The position numbers and the translations under genes were made by a program. Of a DNA stretch of 64,000 nt, positions 571 to 15,705 are shown piece by piece. Every line of letters begins with the position of its first letter. The first letter of the stretch is position 1. Source of the stretch: Roseiflexus sp. RS-1 (lineage in GTDB: Bacteria; Chloroflexota; Chloroflexia; Chloroflexales; Roseiflexaceae); contig NC_009523.1 of the NCBI RefSeq assembly GCF_000016665.1, positions 62,001 through 126,000 on the forward strand. Reading direction: 5' to 3'. The notes under the pieces are model-generated. The model saw only the letters and a program-made list of their open reading frames with translations. It was not told the origin of the DNA and ran no database searches.

Positions 571-789
571 ATGTTCACGAAGAATGAAGGTTCTCTGGAT
601 CGCGGTATTCGCGCCGTGGTAGGCGTGCTGGCGCTTATTGCCGGATTCACGATGCTGAGCGGCGTGTGGCAGATCGTTGCCGGTGTGGTGGGGCTTGTGC
701 TGCTCGCTACAGCGGCAATCGGCATCTGCCCGCTCTACTCGGTGTTGGGCATCAACACCTGCCCGGTGAAGCCTGCCGAACGGCGTTGA
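571..789 (+). CDS. DUF2892 (YgaP-type) small membrane protein
   Basis: A 72-residue protein. After a charged N-terminus (MFTKNEGSLDRGIRA) come two hydrophobic segments (about residues 16-33 and 36-53) and the conserved end CPLYSVLGINTCP, which is the pattern of the DUF2892 / YgaP transmembrane family. These proteins are often linked to rhodanese or thiol chemistry, but the specific role is unknown. I chose the ATG at 571 over an earlier in-frame start because an AAAGGAG ribosome site lies 7 bases upstream. Its last 38 bases overlap tail-to-tail with the convergent helicase gene. Confidence 0.85.
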   Translation: MFTKNEGSLDRGIRAVVGVLALIAGFTMLSGVWQIVAGVVGLVLLATAAIGICPLYSVLGINTCPVKPAERR

Positions 790-2767
790 GTTGCGCGAAG
801 AACGGCGGTGGTTCGCCGACGCATGTGATCGCCAGGCGCTGCCCGGCGCGCGTCAACGCCATGTACAACCGGCGGGTGTTGTCGCGGATCAGGGCAGCGC
901 GTTCTTCATCGGACAGAATCGGGTTCTGTTCCGCCTGATACAGGCGGTGTACGCCCATCACAAAGACGATCGGGCTTTCGAGACCGGTTGCGGCATTCAT
1001 GGTGCACACCCGGAGATGCTTCCCTGGCGGTATCTTCTTCGGATCGGCTACCGCTGCACTGCCAAACTCCCGTCGCAGGCGTTCCAGCATCCGATCAACG
1101 CCCTGCCAGTCGGGATGGATCACCAGGATGTGCTCCAGCGCGACGCCACGTTCGCGGAGTGCACGAATCTCATTGACGACACGCGTCATTTCGTCCTGCT
1201 CGCTGTCGAGCACGACGACCTGCGGCGGTTCATTGTGCGCTTGAGGCGCGGCTTGTGCGATGATCGCTTCATCATCATCGGGCAAACGCATCTGATACAT
1301 GCGGGAAGCAAAATCGAGAATCGCGGGAGCGGTGCGGTACGATCGGTCGAGACGCACGGAATGCCCGCGCACCTCCAATCCCATCTCTTTCCATGATTGC
1401 CCGCGCCGCAAAAATCCCTGGGTCGGGTCGGCGACAAGGAACAGATGACCGGCAGGCTTGAGGATCCGTTTGATGATTGCGAACCAGATTGGTGCAAAGA
1501 ACTGCGCTTCGTCGATCAGAATAAAATCATACGGCTCAACCAGGAGTCGTCCTTCCACAAGGGCGCGCCAGATACGGCGCGGGACATCACCCCAATCGAG
1601 CAGTCCTCGCGCAGTCATTAAACGTCGATACGTGGTTATCGCATCGAACATACGGTTGCGCATCGATTCGTTCAAGCCAAAACCGCGTCCAGACCGTTTG
1701 GCGTCAAGGTATTCCTCGCGGGTGTTCAACAGCCGATCCTTGAACCAGTCGATCTCTTCCTGCAACATCCGCTCGGATATCGACGTGTCCGCCAGGTGCT
1801 GACGCCACACATCGGCAATCACCGAGGCGCGTTTACGTTCACTGATGATGTTCCAGCGTTCATCCGACGGCCTGTGGCGCCAGCACCACTGGTGAAAGGT
1901 CTGCCACTCGACGCCTGTGTCGTTGTTGGTGAGACGCCAGTAGCGCGCTTCGAGGTCGCGGATCAGTGGACGATTGAACGTCAACACGAGAATGCGCTTC
2001 TGTGGAAAATACTGCCGCAACAAACGGGCACGATACACGACCAGCAGCGATTTGCCGCTGCCAGCCACACCGCTGACCTGCCGCACTCCCATATCACGGC
2101 TCACGCTCCCGGCTTCGTCCGAAAGTTCCAGATCAACTTTGAGCGCCCATTCCTGCACCGGGCTGAGGAGGCAGTCGGTTAGTCCGGCTGATGTGTTCCG
2201 AAACGGCGACCCGCGAATAGTCATGGATGCAGGAACGACAACTTCGGGCGAAAAGATCGATCGTAACGCCATCGTCTGTCCGACCGTCAACGGCGCGCCG
2301 AGGTGCGACTCGATCCAGGCGGGCAATCGTTCCGGACTCAGATCGTCACGCCCGGTCGCCGGAATGTCCGGCGGCAGCGCCTGACGCAGATCGTTGTTGG
2401 AAATGTTCGGGAACAGGATGACACCCGGAACCTGTTCAGGCGCCAGCGCCTGTGCGGAAGCGCTGAGCATCGACCAGAACTGACGGAGGGCTTCCTGCGC
2501 GACGCTCCCGAATGCCGCGCCACCGCCGAACAACTGACCCTGCAAGGCAGTTCGAGCATCCTGCGGCGTCGCTGGTGATACCTTAATCAGCAGGTATCGT
2601 GCAGAGCGGTGGCACACCAGAAAATCGGGACCGGGCGTACTTCCGCTGGCAAGCCGCAACCAGACGGCATAATCGCTATCTGGCAGCAGACGCTTCAGCA
2701 TCCGGAAGACTTTCGCCGTCTCAGGCGGGAGCGCGCTCGGCGGCGTGTTGGGAAACATGACAGCCAT
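752..2767 (-). CDS. UvrD-like superfamily 1 helicase with NERD-like N-terminus
   Basis: A 671-residue SF1A helicase. Walker A is GVAGSGKS (residues 233-240), motif II is LIDEAQ (about 417-422), and a motif IV-like LDRSYRT and a C-terminal YMALTRAGQRL (motif VI) are present. The first 100 residues (PDFLVCHRSARYLLIKV) resemble the nuclease-related NERD fold often placed in front of UvrD-type helicases; that part is a weak call. The family unwinds DNA 3'-5' in repair, and NERD helicases also occur in phage defence. It lies 44 bases downstream of another helicase on the same strand, probably one operon. Its 3' end overlaps the convergent DUF2892 gene. Confidence 0.88.
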   Translation of the reverse strand: MAVMFPNTPPSALPPETAKVFRMLKRLLPDSDYAVWLRLASGSTPGPDFLVCHRSARYLLIKVSPATPQDARTALQGQLFGGGAAFGSVAQEALRQFWSMLSASAQALAPEQVPGVILFPNISNNDLRQALPPDIPATGRDDLSPERLPAWIESHLGAPLTVGQTMALRSIFSPEVVVPASMTIRGSPFRNTSAGLTDCLLSPVQEWALKVDLELSDEAGSVSRDMGVRQVSGVAGSGKSLLVVYRARLLRQYFPQKRILVLTFNRPLIRDLEARYWRLTNNDTGVEWQTFHQWCWRHRPSDERWNIISERKRASVIADVWRQHLADTSISERMLQEEIDWFKDRLLNTREEYLDAKRSGRGFGLNESMRNRMFDAITTYRRLMTARGLLDWGDVPRRIWRALVEGRLLVEPYDFILIDEAQFFAPIWFAIIKRILKPAGHLFLVADPTQGFLRRGQSWKEMGLEVRGHSVRLDRSYRTAPAILDFASRMYQMRLPDDDEAIIAQAAPQAHNEPPQVVVLDSEQDEMTRVVNEIRALRERGVALEHILVIHPDWQGVDRMLERLRREFGSAAVADPKKIPPGKHLRVCTMNAATGLESPIVFVMGVHRLYQAEQNPILSDEERAALIRDNTRRLYMALTRAGQRLAITCVGEPPPFFAQLNAVRQASPGRC

Positions 2768-2811: not shown

Positions 2812-4632
2812 TTACCGCACATACGGGGAGGTACGATACGCGCATGAGGCGATACATTCTTTCAACTGTTCCACCAACACCTGGATATCCGGATCCTCTG
2901 AGACCAGGGACAGCAGATGGCTGCTTCCCACGATAATGAGTTTCACCCGGGCGCGGGTGATGGCGACGTTCAACCGTTCCGGTTGCAGGAAGAAATCGGC
3001 GATCCCGGCGGCAAATGCCGGATTCGAGGTTGTCAGCGACAGCAAGATGACATCGCGCTCCTGCCCTTGCATCCGTTCGACGGTATCAACAATAATCTTC
3101 CGCCGTTGTTCGCTGTCGGGAGGCATGGAGTGAAGCAGATTGCGAATGGTGCGCGCCTGCGCCCGGTACGGCGTGACGACGCCAATTTCGTCGGGTTTGA
3201 CGCCGCATGCCAGCAGTTCAGCGATCAGATCACAGATCAGGCTCGCCTCCGCCATGCTGCTTGTAGTGGCATTGCGATGGTGCAGATCGACAAACACTTT
3301 TGGCGCTTCCGGGTCAAGAATAGTCTCGAAGCGCGTTGGCTGTCGCATATACGCAACCCTACGTTGAGCAATCTCTTTCGACGCACACCGGAGTTGACCG
3401 TCGTAGTACTGCTGGCTGGGCCATTCGGTCAGTTCAGCGTTCATGCGATAGGTTTCGTCGAGCATCGTGTCGAACCGTCGCCCGACAAGCGCGCCAAACA
3501 CCGAGGCGCGGAGCCATGCCTCCCTGTGTCGCGCGGTCAGCACCGGCGGCAACTGTTTGTGATCGCCGATGAAAATATACCGTTTTGCGACCAGCATTCC
3601 CATAATGGCGAGAGGCATGGTAATCTGACTGGCTTCATCGAAGATCACCGTATCGAACTCAACACCGTTGAGACGCTGTGTGCGCGTTGCGAATGGCGTG
3701 GCGCCAATTGCGTACCCGCCGCTTAACTCAGCAAGCGGCGACCCTTCGAACGTCTCGTAGTTCCGAACATCTGCACCTTCGCTGGCGCTTGCCTGACGCC
3801 CGATTTTGCAGAACGACGCCGGCGCTGCATCACCGAGACGATCCAGTTCAGCCAGCTTTTCCAGCGCGTTGTTGATCGCCCGGTGCGTGAACGCGGTTAC
3901 GAACACACGCTCGCCATCCTCGACGAGCAGTTGCACAAGACGCGCAAGCACAAGCGTCTTGCCTGTTCCGGGAGGTCCCTGGATCAGCCAGGTCAGGTTG
4001 GTGGCATAAGCATTTGCCAGCGCCTCACACTGCGTCGCGTTCAACCCCCACTGCTCTGCGCGCTCATATGCACGCTCATAGCGAGCATAGTCGAGCGTCG
4101 GGTTCACCTGACCCATCAGAAGGGGCAGGATGCGCTGCTGACCGACTGCTGTCCCGGCAGTCTGATCAAGTGCGTCGAGGATGTACGGACTGAAGTCGAC
4201 ATAGCCGTAATCCAGCACCCATCCGGTGCGCTGGTGCAGGATTCGTCCCCAATTGACGCCGGGATCGTCGGTCGAGACCAGGAGGCGCGTTTCGTCATCG
4301 ACTTCGAGCGTACAGGGGACGCGCGGCTCCTCGAAGGGATTGCCGCGGTTCAGCAGCAGGATATCACCTTCACGGAAACGAGAGACGTTGCGGTTGCAGG
4401 CAAGTTCGACGATCCCTTCCGGCGTCACAGAAACGACCTGCACCCCTTCAATGGCGTCTCCCTGGGCTACGCGCTCGGAGATCGGCTTCGACCAGGTTTG
4501 CACGATCTGCTGGCGCTGACTGTCGGCTTCGTCGAGCACCAGACGACGCAGGCGGCGCAGGAAATCGGCGGATGATGATACAGAACGCTCTGATGCGGTC
4601 ACAGGATGCTGCACGCCTTGTGCTGTTGTCAT
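2812..4632 (-). CDS. DNA2/UPF1-like superfamily 1B helicase
   Basis: A 606-residue protein. After about 200 residues without a recognised catalytic motif comes an SF1B helicase core: Walker A GPPGTGKT (219-226), motif II FDEAS (331-335), motif III GDHKQLPP, motif V RMQGQERDVILLS, and motif VI RLNVAITRARVKLI. These are typical of the DNA2/NAM7/UPF1 group, 5'-3' helicases acting on DNA or RNA. The N-terminal region has a beta-rich stretch (about 55-120) like the 1B or stalk domain. It starts the minus-strand pair with the UvrD-like helicase. The ATG at 4632 gives MTTAQGVQ; a run-on upstream start is not needed. Confidence 0.9.
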   Translation of the reverse strand: MTTAQGVQHPVTASERSVSSSADFLRRLRRLVLDEADSQRQQIVQTWSKPISERVAQGDAIEGVQVVSVTPEGIVELACNRNVSRFREGDILLLNRGNPFEEPRVPCTLEVDDETRLLVSTDDPGVNWGRILHQRTGWVLDYGYVDFSPYILDALDQTAGTAVGQQRILPLLMGQVNPTLDYARYERAYERAEQWGLNATQCEALANAYATNLTWLIQGPPGTGKTLVLARLVQLLVEDGERVFVTAFTHRAINNALEKLAELDRLGDAAPASFCKIGRQASASEGADVRNYETFEGSPLAELSGGYAIGATPFATRTQRLNGVEFDTVIFDEASQITMPLAIMGMLVAKRYIFIGDHKQLPPVLTARHREAWLRASVFGALVGRRFDTMLDETYRMNAELTEWPSQQYYDGQLRCASKEIAQRRVAYMRQPTRFETILDPEAPKVFVDLHHRNATTSSMAEASLICDLIAELLACGVKPDEIGVVTPYRAQARTIRNLLHSMPPDSEQRRKIIVDTVERMQGQERDVILLSLTTSNPAFAAGIADFFLQPERLNVAITRARVKLIIVGSSHLLSLVSEDPDIQVLVEQLKECIASCAYRTSPYVR

Positions 4633-5266: not shown

Positions 5267-5584
5267 TTAACCCAACATCTCTACCGACACCGTCCGATTA
5301 TACTTCTGTTTGCGGCGAATGTCGCGCAGGGCGCGCCGGTTGCGGTAGACGGTGATGAGGACCGGGGTGTACCCCTTGTCATTGATGACGAGGGTGGCGC
5401 CTTCCAGATGATGATATTTTTGAAATATCGCCCGGTCGTCCGGGATGTCCCGCCGCCCCAGGAAAATGTGCAGCGCGCCGCCGCTGCGAATGCGACGACC
5501 ATGTCGCATAATGAAAGCCACCTCGTCGTCCGTCAGGTTGCGTTGCGCCTGTCGCACGCGCGCGTGATTGCTTTTGGCGATCAT
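5267..5584 (-). CDS. DUF4258-like small protein
   Basis: A 105-residue basic protein beginning MIAKSNHARVRQAQRNL. The pattern of an N-terminal His/Arg-rich helix followed by a predicted beta sheet ending in VLITVYR resembles DUF4258, a group related to RelE/BrnT-like small toxins; this is a similarity of pattern only. The ATG at 5584 is preceded by a strong ACAGGAGGAGG site, so the longer frame running upstream to 6163 (opposite the sigma factor gene) is not used. No antitoxin partner is visible next to it. Confidence 0.65.
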   Translation of the reverse strand: MIAKSNHARVRQAQRNLTDDEVAFIMRHGRRIRSGGALHIFLGRRDIPDDRAIFQKYHHLEGATLVINDKGYTPVLITVYRNRRALRDIRRKQKYNRTVSVEMLG

Positions 5585-5830: not shown

Positions 5831-6478
5831 ATGGCACAGGAACGTTCCTGGTATGAGGTGGTTCAGGAGTGTCAGGCGCGCGTCGTCCGCATCCGCGCGG
5901 TGTTGACGACAGGCGGCACGCTGACGCCTGAACTTCAGTCCGACCTTGATGCCGTCATTCTTGCGATGCGCAACTGGCTCATTGGTCGCGTACGGCAGTA
6001 TGGATTGACTGAGGATGCGTTCGGCGATGTTTTGCTCGCGGTTATCGAGCAACTTCACCGCGATCTGCGCAGTCCAGGCTTCGGCAGTATGGAGCGCAAG
6101 TTCGGCGCGTATATCACTTCGACGGTCAACCGCATTCTCTTCGAGCGAAGAAAAACAGATCAAACCAACCCCTTATCTTTTCTTAGTCTGGATGCACCGA
6201 CGGGCGATGATGGTCTGCCGCTTCATCGCATGATTGAAGACAAAACGCTGGAACAGCACGCTGATGCATACCAGGAAGAACAGATCCGCGCCCGACTCGA
6301 TGCGGCTATCGCCAGACTGCCCGTGATCGAACGTCAGGTTGTCACCCTGCGTCTTGATGGTGTTGCGAGCGTGGATATCGCCCGGCAGTTCGGCATGTCG
6401 CCTGCAAATGTCACGCACATTCATCATCGCGCGGTCAAAAGACTGAAACAGATTCTGACCGGCGAGGGGGCGTTATGA
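5831..6478 (+). CDS. Sigma-70 family RNA polymerase sigma factor
   Basis: A 215-residue protein with a region 2-like helical segment (about 40-110, including ERKFGAYITSTVNRILFERR) and a clear region 4 HTH (about 155-205, LPVIERQVVTLRLDGVASVDIARQFGMSPANVTHIHHRAVKRL). It should recruit RNA polymerase to a small set of promoters. It is first of a three-gene operon: its stop codon overlaps the ATG of the HTH gene by four bases, and that gene in turn overlaps the IrrE-helicase gene by four. This suggests the sigma factor controls the helicase/peptidase unit or is controlled by it. Confidence 0.85.
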   Translation: MAQERSWYEVVQECQARVVRIRAVLTTGGTLTPELQSDLDAVILAMRNWLIGRVRQYGLTEDAFGDVLLAVIEQLHRDLRSPGFGSMERKFGAYITSTVNRILFERRKTDQTNPLSFLSLDAPTGDDGLPLHRMIEDKTLEQHADAYQEEQIRARLDAAIARLPVIERQVVTLRLDGVASVDIARQFGMSPANVTHIHHRAVKRLKQILTGEGAL

Positions 6479-7080
6479 AAGACCGTTCGTATTTTATCGA
6501 GGCGGCGCTGCGCTATGAGGAACTGCTTGAGTCTGGCCAGATCATCAGTCTCGATGCGTTTGTGGCGCAGGAACCGCCGGAAGTGCGCGAGGAGTTGCGC
6601 GCGTTTCTCGAATTCAATCTGACGCTCGGTGAACCGGATGAGCCGGTGGCGCCGACGGCGACGGAGGAAGCGCTTGCCGATCGCGCGCTGGCGCTGGCGC
6701 ACGCTGCCTGGGAGCGTGAACTCCGCGGCGAACCGACGCGAAATCTGACCGATCTCCGCCGGGAGCGACAGTTGAGCGTCGGGCGTCTGGCGCGACAACT
6801 GACTCTGCCGGTCAGTTTGCTGGCGCGTCTGGAGCGCGGCAAGGTGCGCGCAACCACCATTCCAGAGCGGTTGATCGAGCGTCTTGCCGATGCGTTGCAC
6901 ACACCGGTCGCTACAATCCGGGCAGCGCTGCTGGCGCCGCCGCCGGTCAGCGCTTCAGCCCGGTTGCACGCCGATGATGGCATCATCGAGCCGGAAGAGC
7001 CGACGGTCAGTTTTGCGCAGGCATTTGTTGACAGTGCGCCAACTGAGGAAGAGCGCGCCGCCTGGTCTGATGTGCTATGA
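6475..7080 (+). CDS. XRE-type helix-turn-helix regulator
   Basis: A 201-residue protein. The N-terminal third is helical and acidic (SLDAFVAQEPPEVREEL). Residues about 87-145 form a Cro/XRE HTH (LRRERQLSVGRLARQL, then LLARLERGKV, then IERLADALHTPV). The C-terminus is acidic and probably disordered. ImmA/IrrE peptidases characteristically act on XRE-type repressors encoded beside them (ImmR, DdrO), and the next gene encodes just such a peptidase domain, so this is the likely substrate. The acidic N-terminus could also bind the sigma factor; that is inference. Four-base overlaps on both sides indicate translational coupling. Confidence 0.8.
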   Translation: MKDRSYFIEAALRYEELLESGQIISLDAFVAQEPPEVREELRAFLEFNLTLGEPDEPVAPTATEEALADRALALAHAAWERELRGEPTRNLTDLRRERQLSVGRLARQLTLPVSLLARLERGKVRATTIPERLIERLADALHTPVATIRAALLAPPPVSASARLHADDGIIEPEEPTVSFAQAFVDSAPTEEERAAWSDVL

Positions 7081-10000
7081 GCGTTCGCCGACAACAGATC
7101 CGCGCTGCGGCTTGTGATGTGCGCCGCTCCTACTATGAGCGCGTCGGCAGTGATGATCTCAACCATCCGCTGTCGCTTGATACCCTTGTAGAGGAAATCT
7201 GGGGATTGACGGTCATCCGGGATGTGCTCGCCGCCGGTATTCAGGGGAAGGTCGAGCCGGAACACGACGTCATCCGGGTGCAGCGCGATCTTTCACCGAC
7301 CCGTCAGCGCTTCGTGATTGCCCACGAGATTGGTCATGTGCACCTCGAAGGGTTGGATGCCGGCCCGTTCCGCGATACCGACGAAACGCTCGATGAGTGT
7401 GCCGCAGGCGCCGACGATGAGACGGCGGTTCGTTCGTACAACCGGCGCGAGCGCCGCGAACAGGAGGCGAACCTGTTTGCGCTTGAATTGCTCGTGCCGG
7501 CGGAGGAACTCTGGCAGGCGGTTCAGCAGGCGGACTGGAGCATTGAGTCGCTTGCAGCGCAGTTTGCCGTCTCAACCGATGCCATCCGCGCGCAACTGGT
7601 GAATGTCTGCTGTCTCGATCCGCTGACACCACCCGACGGATCGACCGTTACCCGACATACGTCGTTCACGCCGGACCCGGAGCAACAGGCGGCAGTCGAT
7701 GCGCCGCTGCCGCTGCTGCTTGCGGCTGGACCGGGTACCGGGAAGACGCGCAGCATTGTGGCGAAGTATGTGTCACTGGTGCATCAGGGGGTCGATCCGG
7801 CATCGATCCTGGCGCTGACGTTTTCGAACAGGGCGGCGGAGGAGATGCGCGAGCGGATCATTGCTGCACTGCGTCAGGCAGCGCCACGCCTTGCCGGACG
7901 TGTGGAGATCAGTACGTTTCACTCGTGGGGACTGAATATCCTGCGCATCTACGGGGCGCGACTGGGGTTGCCGGCGGATGTGCGGCTTCTCGATACTGCC
8001 GATCTCTTTCTTCTGCTCTCGAAGCGCCTGGACGATCTGCGCCTGGCGTATTTCAAAGACCTGCGCGAACCGACCCGTCATCTGGTGACGATTATTCAGG
8101 CGATCAGCCGGATCAAGGATGAACTGTGGTCGCCGGAAGAGTTCGCGCGTGCGGCGGAGCAGGAAGCGGAGCGTCTGATCGGACAGGCGGAGCAGGATCA
8201 TCCTGGCGCTTCGCGCAAAGCCACCGAAGCGCGCGAGCGCGCGGTGCGACGGGCGACCGCGTTACGCGAACTGGCACAGATCTACCCGCGCTACGAAGCG
8301 ATCCTGCGCGAGGCGGGCGCACTGGACTATGGCGATCTGATTGTGTTACCGGTGAGGGCGCTGCACGATCCGGCAATCGCTGCCGATCTCCGTCGGCGTT
8401 ACCACTACCTTCTGGTCGATGAATTTCAGGATATCAACTACGCTTCGGGCGAGTTGATCCGGCTGCTCGATGGTGGACGCGGACGGGTGTGGGCGGTCGG
8501 CGATGCCTGGCAGAGCATCTATCGCTTTCGCGGCGCATCGGCGGCCAATCTCGATGAGTTCCTGCACCATTACCCGACGGCGCAGGTTCGCTATCTGACG
8601 CGCAACTACCGCTCGTTGCAACCGATCCTCGATGCCAGCGCCGCAGTGATGGTCAGCGATCCTCGCGCTGCAACCCGTCCGTTGCTGCAGGCGCAACGCA
8701 CCGGCGGCGGTCACGCAGTTATCGAACTAGTTGCACCGCACAGTCAGGATGAACATACAGCAATTGCGCACGACATTCTGCGCCGGGCGCGATCCGGTCG
8801 AGGCAGGGGATTGCCGCGCTGCGCCGTGCAACCGTGGATGCTGCACTGCCGGAAGATGCGACGTGCACTGCGTCGTCCACCCCTGTTCATTCGTCGCTGG
8901 CGTTTCCACGACCATGCAGTGCTCTGCCGCACCCACGAACAGGCGAGCGCAATTGCTGCTGTGCTCGAAGCGCACGGCATTCCGGTCGATCATCCGGGCA
9001 ACGTGTTCGAGGCGTCAGAGGTGAAGGATGTCCTGGCAATCTGCGCCCAGATTGGATCGACGAACAGCGCCGGTCTGCTGCGAGCGTTGACGATGCCCGA
9101 TCACCGTCTTGATCCCAACGACCTCAACCTGCTTGTCAGTCTGGCGCGACAGACGCAACAGGCGCTTCCACGCGCCGCTCGCGATCCGGCGGTTCTTGCG
9201 CAGTTGAGTGAAACCGCCCGACAGACGCTCACACGGCTTCAGACTATCGTCGAAACGCTGGAGAGAGAAGCGGATGTCTGGCACGCGCTGACGACCTATC
9301 TATTCGAGCAGAGTCAGGCGATGCGGCAACGGTTGAACCGCGCTGCACGGGGTGAGTATGCCGCACAACGGGAACTTGCCACACTCGGTCAGTTGATTGC
9401 GATTGCGCGCAACTTTGTGCGTCTTGCAACACCGGAGGAGAGCGGTGCGCCGCACTTCATCGCCTACATTCGCGCATTGCGCGCTGCCGGTGTGCAACCA
9501 CGACCGTTGATCGGCGGGCAGGCGGATGCCGTGCGGGTCATGACCGTCCACGCTGCAAAGGGGCTGGAGTTTCCAATTGTGTATGTACCAGGATTGCAGG
9601 AGGGACGCTTCCCGGCGCGGGGCAATCAGCGTGGATTGTCATTGCCTGCCGGTCTTATTCGCGGTTCGATCGAGCCTGAAGACCAGGAGGAGCGCTACCT
9701 TCTCTACGTGGCGATGACTCGCGCACGTGACCGGTTGGTGCTCAGTCGCGCACTGACGCGGGGCAATGGCGAGAGAGCAGCGGAACGTTCTTCGTTGTTA
9801 CCCGGCGATGGTGACGGGAATGGCGCACCCTGGATCGTTCGATCAGTCATCGGCGGGGCAACCTGTCCGAATCCAGCGCCTGCGATGCGGCTGCACGACA
9901 CACCAGCGCCGCGTATGCCGTTACCGGCTTCGAGTATCGATCTCGACGGTTGCAAACGGCGCTTTCTGTATCAGTACGTATATCAGTTGTACGACGATCT

Positions 10001-10610
10001 TTCGCCGTTTTTACGTATGCATCAGGCAATCCGCGAATGCGTCAGGACGCTGACGGAACAGGCGCGTGCGGGTGTTCTGCCTGCCGATGACGATGCAGTA
10101 CGATCGCTGGTATTCGGTCAGTTGCAGCGGTACGAACTCGACACGGTGCTCTACGCCGAAGACTATGCCACCGAGACGTTACAGCACGTTCAGGTGGTGT
10201 GGAATGACCTGCGAAGCGGGCGAATCGCGCCTGAGCGGGTAGACCGGCGCGTGCTGGTGCGGCGACCGGCTGGGGTGATCGAAGTGCGGATTGATCGAGA
10301 GGAGACGCAGGACGGAGTGACGCGGTGGGTATGGGTGCGGCCCGGTGCGCCGCGTGGCAATGATCATCTCTCGGAGCGTATGATCCTGTATGCGCTGGCG
10401 CGTCAGGAGGTGGGTCATCCTCCTGATGAACTTGCGATTGCCTTTACGGGAACAGGCGAGACAGTGCGGGTCACGCACGCTGAGCGGGTACTGGCGAACC
10501 ACACGGCAAAGATCGACCGTCTGCTCGAAGCGATGCACGAGCGGCGCTGGGAACCGTCGTTTGGTTCACAGTGCGACACCTGCCCTTTCAACCTGATCTG
10601 TCCGGTATAA
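7077..10610 (+). CDS. ImmA/IrrE metallopeptidase fused to UvrD-like helicase and RecB/AddB-like C-terminus
   Basis: A 1177-residue fusion. Residues about 35-160 are an ImmA/IrrE zinc peptidase: HEIGH at 83-87 and the third ligand in EANLFA (E130). A UvrD/Rep helicase follows: Q motif around 197-206, Walker A AGPGTGKT (217-224), motif II VDEFQD (about 447-452), motif V VMTVHAAKGLEFPIVY, and motif VI YVAMTRARDRL (about 873). The C-terminus looks like a RecB/AddB nuclease domain with an iron-sulphur type cysteine set (C959, then CDTCPFNLIC at the very end). However, the nuclease DYK-type motif reads VWVRPG, so it is probably inactive. Residues about 572-618 are oddly arginine-rich (see findings). 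It is the last gene of the sigma/HTH operon. Confidence 0.88.
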   Translation: MSVRRQQIRAAACDVRRSYYERVGSDDLNHPLSLDTLVEEIWGLTVIRDVLAAGIQGKVEPEHDVIRVQRDLSPTRQRFVIAHEIGHVHLEGLDAGPFRDTDETLDECAAGADDETAVRSYNRRERREQEANLFALELLVPAEELWQAVQQADWSIESLAAQFAVSTDAIRAQLVNVCCLDPLTPPDGSTVTRHTSFTPDPEQQAAVDAPLPLLLAAGPGTGKTRSIVAKYVSLVHQGVDPASILALTFSNRAAEEMRERIIAALRQAAPRLAGRVEISTFHSWGLNILRIYGARLGLPADVRLLDTADLFLLLSKRLDDLRLAYFKDLREPTRHLVTIIQAISRIKDELWSPEEFARAAEQEAERLIGQAEQDHPGASRKATEARERAVRRATALRELAQIYPRYEAILREAGALDYGDLIVLPVRALHDPAIAADLRRRYHYLLVDEFQDINYASGELIRLLDGGRGRVWAVGDAWQSIYRFRGASAANLDEFLHHYPTAQVRYLTRNYRSLQPILDASAAVMVSDPRAATRPLLQAQRTGGGHAVIELVAPHSQDEHTAIAHDILRRARSGRGRGLPRCAVQPWMLHCRKMRRALRRPPLFIRRWRFHDHAVLCRTHEQASAIAAVLEAHGIPVDHPGNVFEASEVKDVLAICAQIGSTNSAGLLRALTMPDHRLDPNDLNLLVSLARQTQQALPRAARDPAVLAQLSETARQTLTRLQTIVETLEREADVWHALTTYLFEQSQAMRQRLNRAARGEYAAQRELATLGQLIAIARNFVRLATPEESGAPHFIAYIRALRAAGVQPRPLIGGQADAVRVMTVHAAKGLEFPIVYVPGLQEGRFPARGNQRGLSLPAGLIRGSIEPEDQEERYLLYVAMTRARDRLVLSRALTRGNGERAAERSSLLPGDGDGNGAPWIVRSVIGGATCPNPAPAMRLHDTPAPRMPLPASSIDLDGCKRRFLYQYVYQLYDDLSPFLRMHQAIRECVRTLTEQARAGVLPADDDAVRSLVFGQLQRYELDTVLYAEDYATETLQHVQVVWNDLRSGRIAPERVDRRVLVRRPAGVIEVRIDREETQDGVTRWVWVRPGAPRGNDHLSERMILYALARQEVGHPPDELAIAFTGTGETVRVTHAERVLANHTAKIDRLLEAMHERRWEPSFGSQCDTCPFNLICPV

Positions 10611-11103: not shown

Positions 11104-11145
11104 CCTTCAACCCTCTCACCTCTCACCTCTCTTCACCCCCTCCAG
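11087..11145. repeat. Short pyrimidine-rich tandem repeats
   Basis: Tandem CTTCAAC and CTCTCAC units lie between the truncated gene and the end of the MBL-fold gene. A shorter CTTCAACCTT run also occurs at about 27,488. Confidence 0.5.
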
Positions 11146-12143
11146 TAGCGCGGCGCAACCCCTTCATCCAGGTCAACATCGGCCAGATTGGCGATGGTCA
11201 GTTCACCGCGCATATCGAGATACTCGACATACGCTCCGGCTTTCTGCAACGCCAGCAGTTCCTCATACCCGTTGACGCCCGGGTAGAGTGCGGCGGTGAG
11301 TTCTGCGATCGTGCGCGGTTCGCGGCACAGGGCGCGCACCTGCTCAAGTCGCTGCTCCTGCGCATCGATAATGCGCACAATCCAGTCGTGGATGTGATCC
11401 ATTGGGGCGCCATGCCCGCCAAGCGCCAGGCGAATGTCGGGCAGCGCATCGATCAGACGCAATGCCCTGAGGTAGTGGTCAAGACCGGTAGAGAGGGTAA
11501 TACTCTCCGGCGGCAGGAAGATCGACGTCTGCGGCAGGACGTGGTCGGCGCTGAGGAGCACATCGCCAATCTGAAGGCAGACCTGTCCCGGACAGTGACC
11601 GGGGGCGTGGTAGACTCGGAAGAGGTCATCAATCACATCTCCTTCACGAAACGTCGTGGCGACATCGACCGAACGGAACAGGTTCTTGCTCCAACCGTAC
11701 AGGTGCAGCAGGATCGTCTGCTTTGCGGATGACACTCCGGCGCGGCGAAGGAATGCGGCAAGAGCGCGGCGCGCCAGAACGAACCGCTCCTCGTGATGTG
11801 TCAGAACGCGTCGGTCGAGTTCATGAACGGCGATCGGCGCGTCGGTCAGGCTGCGCAGCGCCGTCAAACCGCCGTAGTGGTCGATATGGGCGTGGGTGAT
11901 AATGACCCGACGCAGATCGGTCCAGGTCAGACGTTCATTCCAATCGGAACGCAGTGCAGCGAAGGCGGTGCGCAGATCGGCATCACTGTCGCCTAATCCG
12001 CTGCCGGTATCGACGAGTGCTGCATAATCGCCTGCAATGACCACATATACATTTGCTGTCAGGTTCGGAAAGACACGGATCGGCAGGCGATAGATACGGA
12101 CGCCGCCAGGCGCTTCGTGACGGGTAATGGTCTCAGGGGACAC
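11133..12143 (-). CDS. MBL-fold (metallo-beta-lactamase) hydrolase
   Basis: A 336-residue protein with the zinc-binding motif THAHIDHYGG, a second His in HAPGHCPGQ, an Asp in LSADH and a later GGHGAP. This is a binuclear-zinc MBL fold of the type that includes glyoxalase II-like and lactonase-like enzymes, with a C-terminal helical domain (from about residue 250) as in the LACTB2-like group. The substrate is unknown. I chose the GTG at 12143 because a GGAGGAG site lies 7 bases upstream; this start lies inside the last codons of the regulator gene (11-base overlap), so the two are translationally coupled. Confidence 0.82.
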   Translation of the reverse strand: MSPETITRHEAPGGVRIYRLPIRVFPNLTANVYVVIAGDYAALVDTGSGLGDSDADLRTAFAALRSDWNERLTWTDLRRVIITHAHIDHYGGLTALRSLTDAPIAVHELDRRVLTHHEERFVLARRALAAFLRRAGVSSAKQTILLHLYGWSKNLFRSVDVATTFREGDVIDDLFRVYHAPGHCPGQVCLQIGDVLLSADHVLPQTSIFLPPESITLSTGLDHYLRALRLIDALPDIRLALGGHGAPMDHIHDWIVRIIDAQEQRLEQVRALCREPRTIAELTAALYPGVNGYEELLALQKAGAYVEYLDMRGELTIANLADVDLDEGVAPRYWRG

Positions 12144-15100
12144 GATGACTCTCCTCCAGACGGGTAGACAGAGCAGATGCCGCTGCGGCGAGCGGCGCAA
12201 GTCCGGCGCTGCGTGCAAGACGAGCGGCACTGCGCAGATGCGCCAGTACCGGTGCAGGATCGCCGAAGTCACGTTCGATGCGGGCAACTTCGATGACGGT
12301 GCGGACATACTCCGGCAGGAGCGCCCGTTGCACCGTGTAGTGGAGGGTGTGCAGCAGCATCGTCCGCGCCCCCGGCAGGTCGTTGCGCAACGCTGCGAGG
12401 CGTGCTATACCAAGGTGCGCGCTGACATAGATGAAACCGTACAGTTGATGCGGCGCTCGCAACGCCTCGTGAAAATACGCATCGGCGCCGGTCAGGTCGC
12501 CGCGCGCCAGCGCTACCATGCCCATCCCCACGACCACACTGGCGCGGTGCGACTGAAATGCCGCTACGCCAGCGAGACGCGCTGCCATTTCAACAAAGCG
12601 TTGTTCCGCCAGCGCCAGGCGATCATCGATCAACCAGAGGAAGCCCTGATGGATGCGGGGCCAGATCGAGGCCCATGCCGCTTCGGATGCTCGCGCGGCG
12701 GTTTCCAGGCTGCGCTCCAGCCAGATAGTCGTTTCGTCAGGCTTGCCAGCGAGCGCGTTCAGGTGCGCCAGTTGCAACGCCGAGACGACGGCGGCCGGCG
12801 CCTGACCGGTTTCAACCGCCAGCGTATATGATTGTGTCAGACAAGGGCGTGCGTCGCGCAGCAATCCCTGCATCAACGCCGCCCATCCGATCTGGAACAG
12901 CGCCGCTGCCGCTTCGTCCGGTCCGAGCAGTTCCGGCAGTTCTTCCGCTGGATTGCCTGGAACAGGAGGGGCCGGAGTGAATGACGGGAATGTCCGCCAG
13001 GACGCATCAACATCATTCGAAGGAAGCACATCGGCGTGCTGGACGCCCTGTTCATCTGTTTCACGTGAAACAGTATCCGCCTGGACGAAAAGCGGATCAT
13101 CGACCCTGCTGCGACGGTCGCGCAGGGAAGCGCGTGAGCGCTCGGCAGCGGCAGGAAGCGGATCGGGCTGCAGGATCAACGCCGTGCGCCAGAGCATATC
13201 AGCAATCGAGGGGAGCGGTTCGACACAACCGCCTTTTTGTGTGCGCGCTGCATGCGCGGCGCTGATTGCAGCGGCGCCCGCCAGATCGCCCATCAGCGCA
13301 CGCAGCAGCACCAACCGACGCGGCGCAACGAGCGTTGGCGGCGTTACACCACGCTGCGTCGCCCAGCGCTCATAGCGCGCAGAGGTTTCTTCCAACCCGT
13401 TCCAGTCCAGCAGCGTCTCGCACGTCAGCAACCGTCCGGCAAAGGCGCGTTGCATCATCTCGACCGGCGCCTCAGCGCCGAGACGTTCGCCCGCTTCAAT
13501 AGCGGCATCATAGTGGTGCAACGCATGACGATACCCGAACGCGCGCCGCGCATGATCGCCAGCATCAATCGCATAGCGCAGCACGTCGCGATCGGCAGAA
13601 CGCCCAGCCTGGCAAAAATGATAGGTGATCTCGGCAGCACGCTCCGGTCGATGCCCTTCAAGCGCTGCCATCGCGGCGCCGATCCGATGGTGCAACCGCC
13701 GACGCTGCGGCGCAGAGAGGGTGGCCGCGATGATCGAGCGCACCAGGTCATGGTTGAACGCAAGGTGCGTATCGTCATTCTCAATAAGTATCTGACGCTC
13801 AAGCAGGATCTGCGCGGCTTCGAGCGCATCCGCGCCCCCCAGACGTTCGATCAGGTCGAGTGACGCCGGACGACTGATCAGCGCCAGATGCTCTGCCAGA
13901 TCGCGTGCGTGCGGCGGCAATCGATCAATGCGCGCCCGCACCAGTTCACGCATCTGCGGCGCTTCGGTCGGATCGGGAAACGGCATACCTGCTTCGAGGT
14001 CGGGCAGCAACGCAGCGAGCGATGGCGCCCCGCGACTCTCCAGTAATGCCTGGACTGTCACCATCAATGCCAGAGGATTGCCGCCGGTGCTGGCGACCAG
14101 TTGGGGCGCCAGATGTGCGACCCGCCCGATCTCAACTCCGGCAAGTCCGGCGAGAAGTTCAGCAACTGCCGATGCATCGAGGCGACCCAGCACCAGCGGA
14201 CGCAGGATCATATCGCGTCCCAGGGTGCGCAACAGATTGTGGAGCGCCGGGTTATCACTCAGTTCATCGGCGCGGTATGCCAGGATGAGCAACAACGCCC
14301 GGCGCGACGCCTGACGGGCGAGGCGCCCGACCGTCGCCAGCGTTGCATCGTCCGCCCACTGCGCATCATCGAGCGCAACGACCAGCGGGAGTGTGCGCGC
14401 CAGCGCAAGCGCCAGTTCACACAGACCGTCGATCTGTCGGTTACGCCGTTCCTCAGGCGGCACATCCGACAGTTCAGGCAGATCCGGCAACCGTTCCCGC
14501 AACACCGGAAAAAGATCGGCGATCTGCGCCAGTGCAAACTGCGGCAGTTGACGAAGACGATACTCCGGTACATTGCGCAGCAAGGGGCGCAGCATCTCTC
14601 CGACCGCAGCAAAGGGCAACCCCTGATCCAGCGGCGTGGCGCGCAGTTCAAGCGTAAATGCGCCCCGGTCGGCGGCAGTGCGCAGCGTTTCTGCTATCAG
14701 GCGCGTCTTCCCAATCCCCGCTTCACCGACGATGGTGACCATTCCGCCGCTACGCCGATCAAGATCGGCGAGCCAGCGGTGCAATAACGCCAGTTCCTCC
14801 TGACGTCCGACAATCGGCGTTGCTGCCGATCCCGGAGAACGTTGTCCGGCACGTGGACTGCGCGGTTCGATCCGCTGTCGATCATGACGGTTTTCGTGCG
14901 ATGAGGAGACCGCAGCAGGCGCATAGGAACCAGGATCGCCGCGCAGGATCGCCATATGCAGCGCCTGTGTCTGAGGCGACGGCGCAGCGCCCAACTCGTG
15001 GTCCAGCAGATGACGGTAGCGCTCGTAACTCTGAAGCGCGCCGGCCGTGTCGCCTGACCGCGCCTGTGCCAGCATCAGGATGCGCCAGAGCGGTTCGGTG

Positions 15101-15705
15101 AGAGGCGCAATGGCAATGCCGCGACCGGCAAGCGCCGCCGCAGCCATCGGGTCGCCGCGGTCGAGTTTGATCTCCGCCACACGACGGAGCGCGTCGAGGT
15201 AGCGTGCACGCAACCGCTCACGCTCCATCGCCGCCCACGCCAGTTCCTGCTCATCTTCGAGAAAGTCGCCGCGATAGAGCGTAATCGCCCGCTCCAGGTC
15301 CGCCTCACCCTGCTCCATCGAACCGGTCGTCTGACCACCGGCGAGTGATTCGGTCAGCGTTAGAAACTCATCGACATCGATCCACGCGCCGCTCTCTCTG
15401 TTCCAGGCATACCCGCCGGAGCGGGTCAGAATATACCGGCGTGAAGCGCGGTCAGCCTCTGGTTCCAGCACACGACGCAGGTTGCTGATTGCGCTCCGCA
15501 GGTTTACCGATGCGCTGGCGCTGTCCGAATCAGGCCACAGCCATTCGCACAATCGCCCGGCAGCAATAACCCGCCCCCGGGTTGCAGCGAGAATGGCAAG
15601 CAGACGCTGCTCCTGCCGGGAACGCCAGACGGAGTCGGGTAGCGTGCGATCACCGATCTGTACGGTCAGCGCGCCGAATAACGCAATCCTGAGCGGCGCA
15701 TCCAT
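12133..15705 (-). CDS. SARP/BTAD transcriptional activator with AAA ATPase and TPR-like C-terminus
   Basis: A 1190-residue regulator. Residues about 1-100 form an OmpR-type winged helix (LRIALFGALTVQIGD, then VNLRSAISNLRRVLEP); about 100-250 form the bacterial transcriptional activation domain; about 300-600 form a STAND/AAA ATPase with Walker A GEAGIGKT (about 325-332) and LVVALDDAQWADD as Walker B; the rest is alpha-helical repeats (TPR-like). This is the AfsR/MalT-like plan, where ligand sensing by the repeats controls ATP-dependent DNA binding. The only gene coupled to it is the MBL hydrolase, which may make or destroy its signal. No promoter is obvious. Confidence 0.88.
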   Translation of the reverse strand: MDAPLRIALFGALTVQIGDRTLPDSVWRSRQEQRLLAILAATRGRVIAAGRLCEWLWPDSDSASASVNLRSAISNLRRVLEPEADRASRRYILTRSGGYAWNRESGAWIDVDEFLTLTESLAGGQTTGSMEQGEADLERAITLYRGDFLEDEQELAWAAMERERLRARYLDALRRVAEIKLDRGDPMAAAALAGRGIAIAPLTEPLWRILMLAQARSGDTAGALQSYERYRHLLDHELGAAPSPQTQALHMAILRGDPGSYAPAAVSSSHENRHDRQRIEPRSPRAGQRSPGSAATPIVGRQEELALLHRWLADLDRRSGGMVTIVGEAGIGKTRLIAETLRTAADRGAFTLELRATPLDQGLPFAAVGEMLRPLLRNVPEYRLRQLPQFALAQIADLFPVLRERLPDLPELSDVPPEERRNRQIDGLCELALALARTLPLVVALDDAQWADDATLATVGRLARQASRRALLLILAYRADELSDNPALHNLLRTLGRDMILRPLVLGRLDASAVAELLAGLAGVEIGRVAHLAPQLVASTGGNPLALMVTVQALLESRGAPSLAALLPDLEAGMPFPDPTEAPQMRELVRARIDRLPPHARDLAEHLALISRPASLDLIERLGGADALEAAQILLERQILIENDDTHLAFNHDLVRSIIAATLSAPQRRRLHHRIGAAMAALEGHRPERAAEITYHFCQAGRSADRDVLRYAIDAGDHARRAFGYRHALHHYDAAIEAGERLGAEAPVEMMQRAFAGRLLTCETLLDWNGLEETSARYERWATQRGVTPPTLVAPRRLVLLRALMGDLAGAAAISAAHAARTQKGGCVEPLPSIADMLWRTALILQPDPLPAAAERSRASLRDRRSRVDDPLFVQADTVSRETDEQGVQHADVLPSNDVDASWRTFPSFTPAPPVPGNPAEELPELLGPDEAAAALFQIGWAALMQGLLRDARPCLTQSYTLAVETGQAPAAVVSALQLAHLNALAGKPDETTIWLERSLETAARASEAAWASIWPRIHQGFLWLIDDRLALAEQRFVEMAARLAGVAAFQSHRASVVVGMGMVALARGDLTGADAYFHEALRAPHQLYGFIYVSAHLGIARLAALRNDLPGARTMLLHTLHYTVQRALLPEYVRTVIEVARIERDFGDPAPVLAHLRSAARLARSAGLAPLAAAASALSTRLEESHRVP

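Follow-up and report, generated by a model that had tools for sequence, protein, structure and literature searches.

A triad of overlapping genes in the Roseiflexus window was interpreted as a DNA-damage-responsive transcription switch that would operate alongside LexA, with a motor-activated peptidase cutting an XRE protein and thereby freeing a sigma factor; the probability of this reading was put at roughly 0.55. The reading is based on the architecture of the encoded proteins, the conservation of their catalytic residues, the linkage and co-occurrence of the genes, and a promoter-like motif shared by the sigma operon and recA. The window, meaning the whole stretch of 64,000 nucleotides that was analyzed, corresponds to bases 62001-126000 of a 5.80-Mb single-contig Roseiflexus genome. 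The first-pass annotation had described three genes with four-base overlaps, and the ORFs were found exactly where it had placed them (Table 1), each starting with ATG and overlapping the next by 4 bp.

Table 1. Features of the triad and its surroundings (window coordinates)
Feature	Position	Strand	Basis or remark
SF1 helicase, UvrD-like	752-2767	-	C3a187 NERD+UvrD match
SF1 helicase, AAA_11/AAA_12	2812-4632	-	
DUF4258-like gene, 105 aa, divergent	5267-5584	-	beside triad in several lineages
Vegetative-type promoter of operon, TTGACA-N17-TAAGAA	5723-5751	+	predicted, consensus by eye
ECF-like sigma-70 factor, 215 aa, triad gene 1 (P0001)	5831-6478	+	ORF and profile matches
XRE/HTH protein, 201 aa, triad gene 2 (P0002)	6475-7080	+	ORF and profile match, model, alignment
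M78 peptidase - UvrD/AdnB-type helicase - degenerate Fe-S PD-(D/E)XK fusion, 1177 aa (P0003)	7077-10610	+	
Peptidase_M78 (IrrE-like) domain of P0003, residues 62-174	7260-7598	+	HEIGH 83-87, third ligand E128
UvrD/Rep/AdnB-type SF1 helicase of P0003, residues 200-905	7674-9791	+	Walker A K223 and DE448-449 invariant
RecB-like nuclease domain of P0003, residues 940-1177	9894-10607	+	motif III (D/E)xK lost; cysteines 959/1166/1169/1175
MBL-fold hydrolase gene	11133-12308	-	
BTAD/AAA regulator gene	12133-15705	-	

The product of the first gene gave a Pfam match to sigma-70 region 4 (E 2e-10) and scored 50.0 bits against the TIGR02937 sigma70-ECF model (cut-off 42.9, residues 57-209), in agreement with its earlier description as a sigma-70-type factor. 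It has the profile of an ECF sigma factor over regions 2 and 4, with region 2 diverged. The HTH assignment of the second product also stood, with an HTH_31 match at residues 91-149 (Pfam, E 2e-7). A structure model built on 4 sequences from the window and related loci (mean pLDDT 77) predicted an N-terminal helical part, a Cro/C1 HTH at residues 91-153, a disordered linker at about 160-190 (low confidence at 160-186), and a C-terminal helix; the modelled HTH could be superposed on CapH and on DdrO, though the E-values were weak. HTH_31 was recognized by Pfam in just 33 of the 54 XRE homologues, so the function shared by the family may be something other than DNA binding, and the role of the XRE protein may vary. 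The alignment also revealed a conserved motif in the C-terminal part; its last residue, a Trp, was kept in 54/54 homologues, whether or not a fusion gene was adjacent. Because the adjacency of the sigma and XRE genes is constant and this motif is invariant, we infer that the XRE protein inhibits the sigma factor, although it could act on DNA instead. The XRE protein is accordingly proposed as both a candidate substrate of the peptidase and the partner of the sigma factor, and the sigma factor, earlier regarded as a mere amplifier, probably represents the output, held in check by the XRE protein.

In the third product, both the HEIGH peptidase and the UvrD-type helicase named by the first-pass annotation were recovered (PF06114 Peptidase_M78, E 2e-18; UvrD N- and C-terminal domains at residues 201-891), together with a third domain that it had overlooked, a PDDEXK_1 match at residues 958-1176 carrying four Fe-S-type cysteines. 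Alignment of 32 fusion homologues from two phyla showed that H83, H87, E128, K223, D448, E449, and cysteines 959, 1166, 1169, and 1175 were invariant (32/32), and the catalytic glutamate E84 was kept in 31/32. The fusion has the HExxH motif, third Glu ligand, and family profile of M78 peptidases, and its motor motifs were intact, with Walker A and DExQ invariant among the fusions; it lacks the signature of an active RecB/AdnAB-type nuclease, motif III (D/E)xK being absent from all 32. Since zinc-site and motor residues are conserved and motif III is lost, the peptidase and the motor look active and the nuclease inactive, as judged from the alignment. Comparison of the M78 profile with solved structures retrieved CapP (7t5t, E 7e-14), IrrE (3dte), and PprI (8slm), which strengthens the previously suggested kinship to XRE-cutting peptidases, as PprI and CapP are ssDNA-activated proteases that cut XRE-type repressors (PMC10904395). 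The remainder of the fusion grouped with UvrD, AdnB, and AddA by sequence and structure comparison (TM 0.68-0.70 by target between AdnB and the helicase body). Such a fold would also suit a protein that is mainly an AdnB/RecB-type repair motor, in which the peptidase is structural or self-regulating and the sigma and XRE proteins only set expression of the fusion; preservation of the zinc ligands and catalytic Glu across two phyla and degeneration of the nuclease in 32/32 fusions argue against this explanation, which we consider improbable. One fusion (L024:7881-11534), from a genome in which no XRE gene was found, has HAIGH in place of HEIGH, and a DNA polymerase IV-like gene (L024:12388-13581) lies about 850 bp downstream of it.

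The domain architecture and an adjacent XRE gene were retained in 11/11 full-length fusion homologues of the order Chloroflexales, which excludes a chance architecture; the sigma gene precedes the XRE gene (for G004, the triad order was read in L168). The triad recurs as a conserved unit in Chloroflexota and in Armatimonadota (GTDB), the phylum to which the Abditibacteriaceae genome G425 belongs; the linkage of sigma, XRE, and fusion genes, for which the earlier annotation had proposed a test, holds across genomes. Within the latter phylum, an XRE gene lies directly upstream of most retrieved fusions, and a recognizable sigma gene precedes it in many. Among the retrieved fusion loci, a partly redundant set limited to those with 700 bp or more of sequence upstream, the XRE gene was directly upstream in 56/85. 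The sigma-XRE pair and the fusion were unlinked in part of family f43 and in family f24, which holds Thermogemmatispora and is presumably Ktedonobacteraceae. Short XRE proteins (169 aa) adjoin M78 fusions in L241-L244 (G500, G534, G528, and G557), and these fusions represent a reduced variant with a shorter, diverged helicase part (about 643 aa in complete copies). In L236 and L247 (G486 and G554), a single fusion follows two to three XRE genes in tandem.

Co-occurrence was evaluated in 400 Chloroflexota, of which 52 had both the pair and the fusion and 340 had neither, whereas the pair occurred alone in 5 and the fusion alone in 3 (p 1e-55, kinship ignored). In one of the five pair-only genomes (G199), a contig end truncates the fusion (L028), and completeness does not exceed 87% in the remaining four; the fusion-only genomes include G118, which has sigma and XRE genes by a broader model, and G344, which is 58% complete. 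The corresponding numbers in Armatimonadota were 33, 0, 4, and 114 (p 3e-29, kinship ignored), a test that is partly circular because the XRE model includes genes found beside fusions. Presence and absence of pair and fusion also agreed inside Chloroflexales, several genera of which have neither. No XRE partner was detected for the fusions of L024/G425, G481, G552, and L282/G738. Fusions that never have sigma or XRE neighbours had been named as evidence that would speak against the coupling; many fusions are in fact unlinked, yet nearly all of those genomes carry the pair elsewhere, so the coupling is not refuted on that ground, and this co-occurrence of unlinked genes also weighs against a repair motor that uses the pair only for its own expression. 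Beyond the two phyla the fusion was rare, being found in 1/199 Acidobacteriota genomes and 0/199 Bacillota genomes.

The sigma-XRE operon of Ktedonobacteraceae is preceded by a bipartite, promoter-like motif, TTTCCG-nYTTT followed by GAATAG 18-19 bases after TTTCCG. Its core, TTTCCG-nYTT, was present upstream of the sigma operon in 9/15 Ktedonobacteraceae, 7/13 other Chloroflexota, and 3/10 Armatimonadota, and before the sigma gene in 0/11 Chloroflexales, including the window. The recA gene was retrieved from 30 fusion carriers, 20 of them Ktedonobacteraceae, and the core plus the -10 element was located about 175-315 bp upstream of recA in 15/20 and 14/20 of the latter with two regular expressions; the opposite strand gave 0 matches, and shuffled sequences averaged 0.6 with the first expression and 0.1 with the second. 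A strict scan of 12 genomes returned 17 sites versus 0 for the reversed pattern, 8 of them before the sigma operon and 1 before recA of G350; these motif counts overstate independence because the genomes counted are related. Outside Ktedonobacteraceae, recA was preceded by weak variants only, and in G080 the recA motif was present and the sigma-XRE pair was not detected. The motif common to the sigma operon and recA in Ktedonobacteraceae gives independent support to the DNA-damage role suggested earlier. Because the motif stands before the operon of the triad's own sigma factor, we infer that this factor, and not another, reads it. The same motif also stands before penicillin-binding-protein-like genes that are orthologous between G170 and G356, and before two single genes, one methyltransferase-like (G170) and one CDP-alcohol phosphatidyltransferase-like (G068) (sites L299, L302, L303, and L151:11683; names assigned by eye), and these genes are candidates for further regulon members.

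Upstream of the split fusion genes, the sigma-type motif was found at 0/33 loci, which fits a constitutive sensor such as irrE (PMC2701414), known to be constitutive where recA is induced (PMC2701414, PMC1978522), and which argues further against the sigma factor serving only to express a repair motor. The upstream region in Roseiflexus contains a conserved vegetative-type promoter plus one conserved block, of which no second copy was found in 0.8 Mb of G000, and the -10 of several other Roseiflexus operon promoters reads TATCAT or TATTAT. No conserved operator was found upstream of the sigma gene across Chloroflexales. This result bears on the possibility that the XRE protein binds DNA as a classical repressor of the DdrO/CapH kind, controlling the operon and a regulon, and is cut by the fusion on DNA damage, with the sigma factor merely one of the repressed products. 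The match of the HTH fold to CapH and DdrO, albeit with weak E-values, and the fact that known M78 substrates are repressors (PMC10904395) agree with that possibility, but it leaves unexplained why the shared motif forms a directional pair of promoter-like elements and not a palindrome, why Pfam misses the HTH in part of the XRE family whereas the C-terminal Trp is invariant, and why the sigma-XRE adjacency is kept where the fusion sits elsewhere; we regard it as unlikely, though deserving some weight. Roseiflexus recA was not located within the 0.8 Mb sampled, and no motif was found before lexA in G163 or Roseiflexus. A block, ATTATANCAGA, that stands upstream of many fusion genes was set aside because it is probably a divergent vegetative -10. 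The idea that the system replaces LexA was also discarded, since LexA is present in 358/380 Chloroflexota, most carriers included; the triad would therefore be a second circuit and not a replacement.

The two opposite-strand SF1 helicases reported earlier as neighbours are present in the window, but they accompany the triad only at certain Roseiflexus loci: both adjoin it in L259 and L260 and were unmatched in the retrieved stretches of the other loci. The DUF4258-like gene is divergent from the sigma gene in Roseiflexus and its relatives, whereas in L164 and L234 it lies 3' of the fusion; it is a possible fourth member of the system. The genes for the MBL-fold hydrolase and the BTAD/AAA regulator overlap each other, are convergent to the triad, and are kept in G001 and G003. 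An anti-phage module resembling Gabija or CBASS, in which foreign DNA would engage the helicase and the response would kill or protect the cell, was considered on the grounds that the PADLOC profile of GajB matches the helicase and that of capP the peptidase, and that the DUF4258 gene adjoins some triads. PADLOC, run on the triad and six neighbouring proteins, detected neither GajA nor a CD-NTase, the XRE protein had no match on plasmids, and recA belongs to the candidate regulon; these findings, together with window neighbours (MetH, CrtC, and the MBL hydrolase) that give no sign of a defence island, make such a module very improbable. Among phages, just a few M78-like proteases were matched.

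The transcription switch would operate as follows. In the undamaged cell, the XRE protein would keep the ECF sigma factor inactive, either directly or at its promoters. The fusion would be the sensor, its RecB/AdnB-type motor loading onto broken or single-stranded DNA with the help of the catalytically dead, Fe-S-stabilized nuclease-like domain, and engagement of DNA by the motor would switch on the N-terminal M78 zinc peptidase. The peptidase would then cut the XRE protein, probably near the flexible C-terminal linker, and the freed sigma factor would transcribe its own operon and a small regulon, including recA in Ktedonobacteraceae; the same wiring may apply in Roseiflexus. The broader proposal is a second damage response, independent of LexA and present in two phyla, whose DNA-break sensor would itself be a RecB-type motor bearing a dead nuclease and acting through its fused zinc peptidase on an alternative sigma factor and hence on recA; we hold it to be evenly poised. 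Neither the fusion nor the triad was described in any paper that a literature search found. The SOS-like circuits known so far rely on RecA-LexA or on an IrrE-type protease that stands alone; in the triad, if the proposal is correct, a single polypeptide would combine sensor motor and protease, and a sigma factor would be the output, which would explain recA regulation apart from LexA in some Chloroflexota and Armatimonadota. The triad would also offer a compact, testable protein machine that couples DNA translocation to proteolysis.

Compared with characterized systems, the triad looks like an undescribed variant of the IrrE/DdrO and CapP/CapH type. It shares with Deinococcus IrrE/PprI-DdrO an M78 zinc peptidase, ssDNA-sensing in that system, and an XRE-fold partner (PMC10904395), and the proposed likeness extends to control of recA and a constitutively expressed sensor gene (PMC10904395, PMC2701414, PMC1978522). 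Unlike IrrE/PprI-DdrO, the triad has its peptidase joined in one chain to a helicase and to a dead nuclease domain and includes a sigma factor in the operon; its output promoter looks ECF-type, where that of IrrE/PprI-DdrO is a derepressed operator. As to a DdrO-like partner at palindromic operators, the modelled HTH superposes weakly on DdrO, and no conserved operator was seen before the operon. CapP of CBASS is the closest solved relative of the M78 domain and the modelled HTH superposes weakly on CapH, but no CD-NTase or CBASS effector was found by PADLOC among the triad and its six neighbours, and the helicase and sigma factor are additional. As in AdnAB, AddAB, and RecBCD, a UvrD-type motor is followed by a RecB-like domain, whereas the fusion has lost nuclease motif III, carries an N-terminal peptidase, and has no dedicated partner subunit that could be found. 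The helicase scores as a GajB-like UvrD, as in Gabija (GajAB), but in place of GajA, an OLD-family nuclease missing from the same triad and six neighbours, the system has a peptidase and the sigma-XRE pair.
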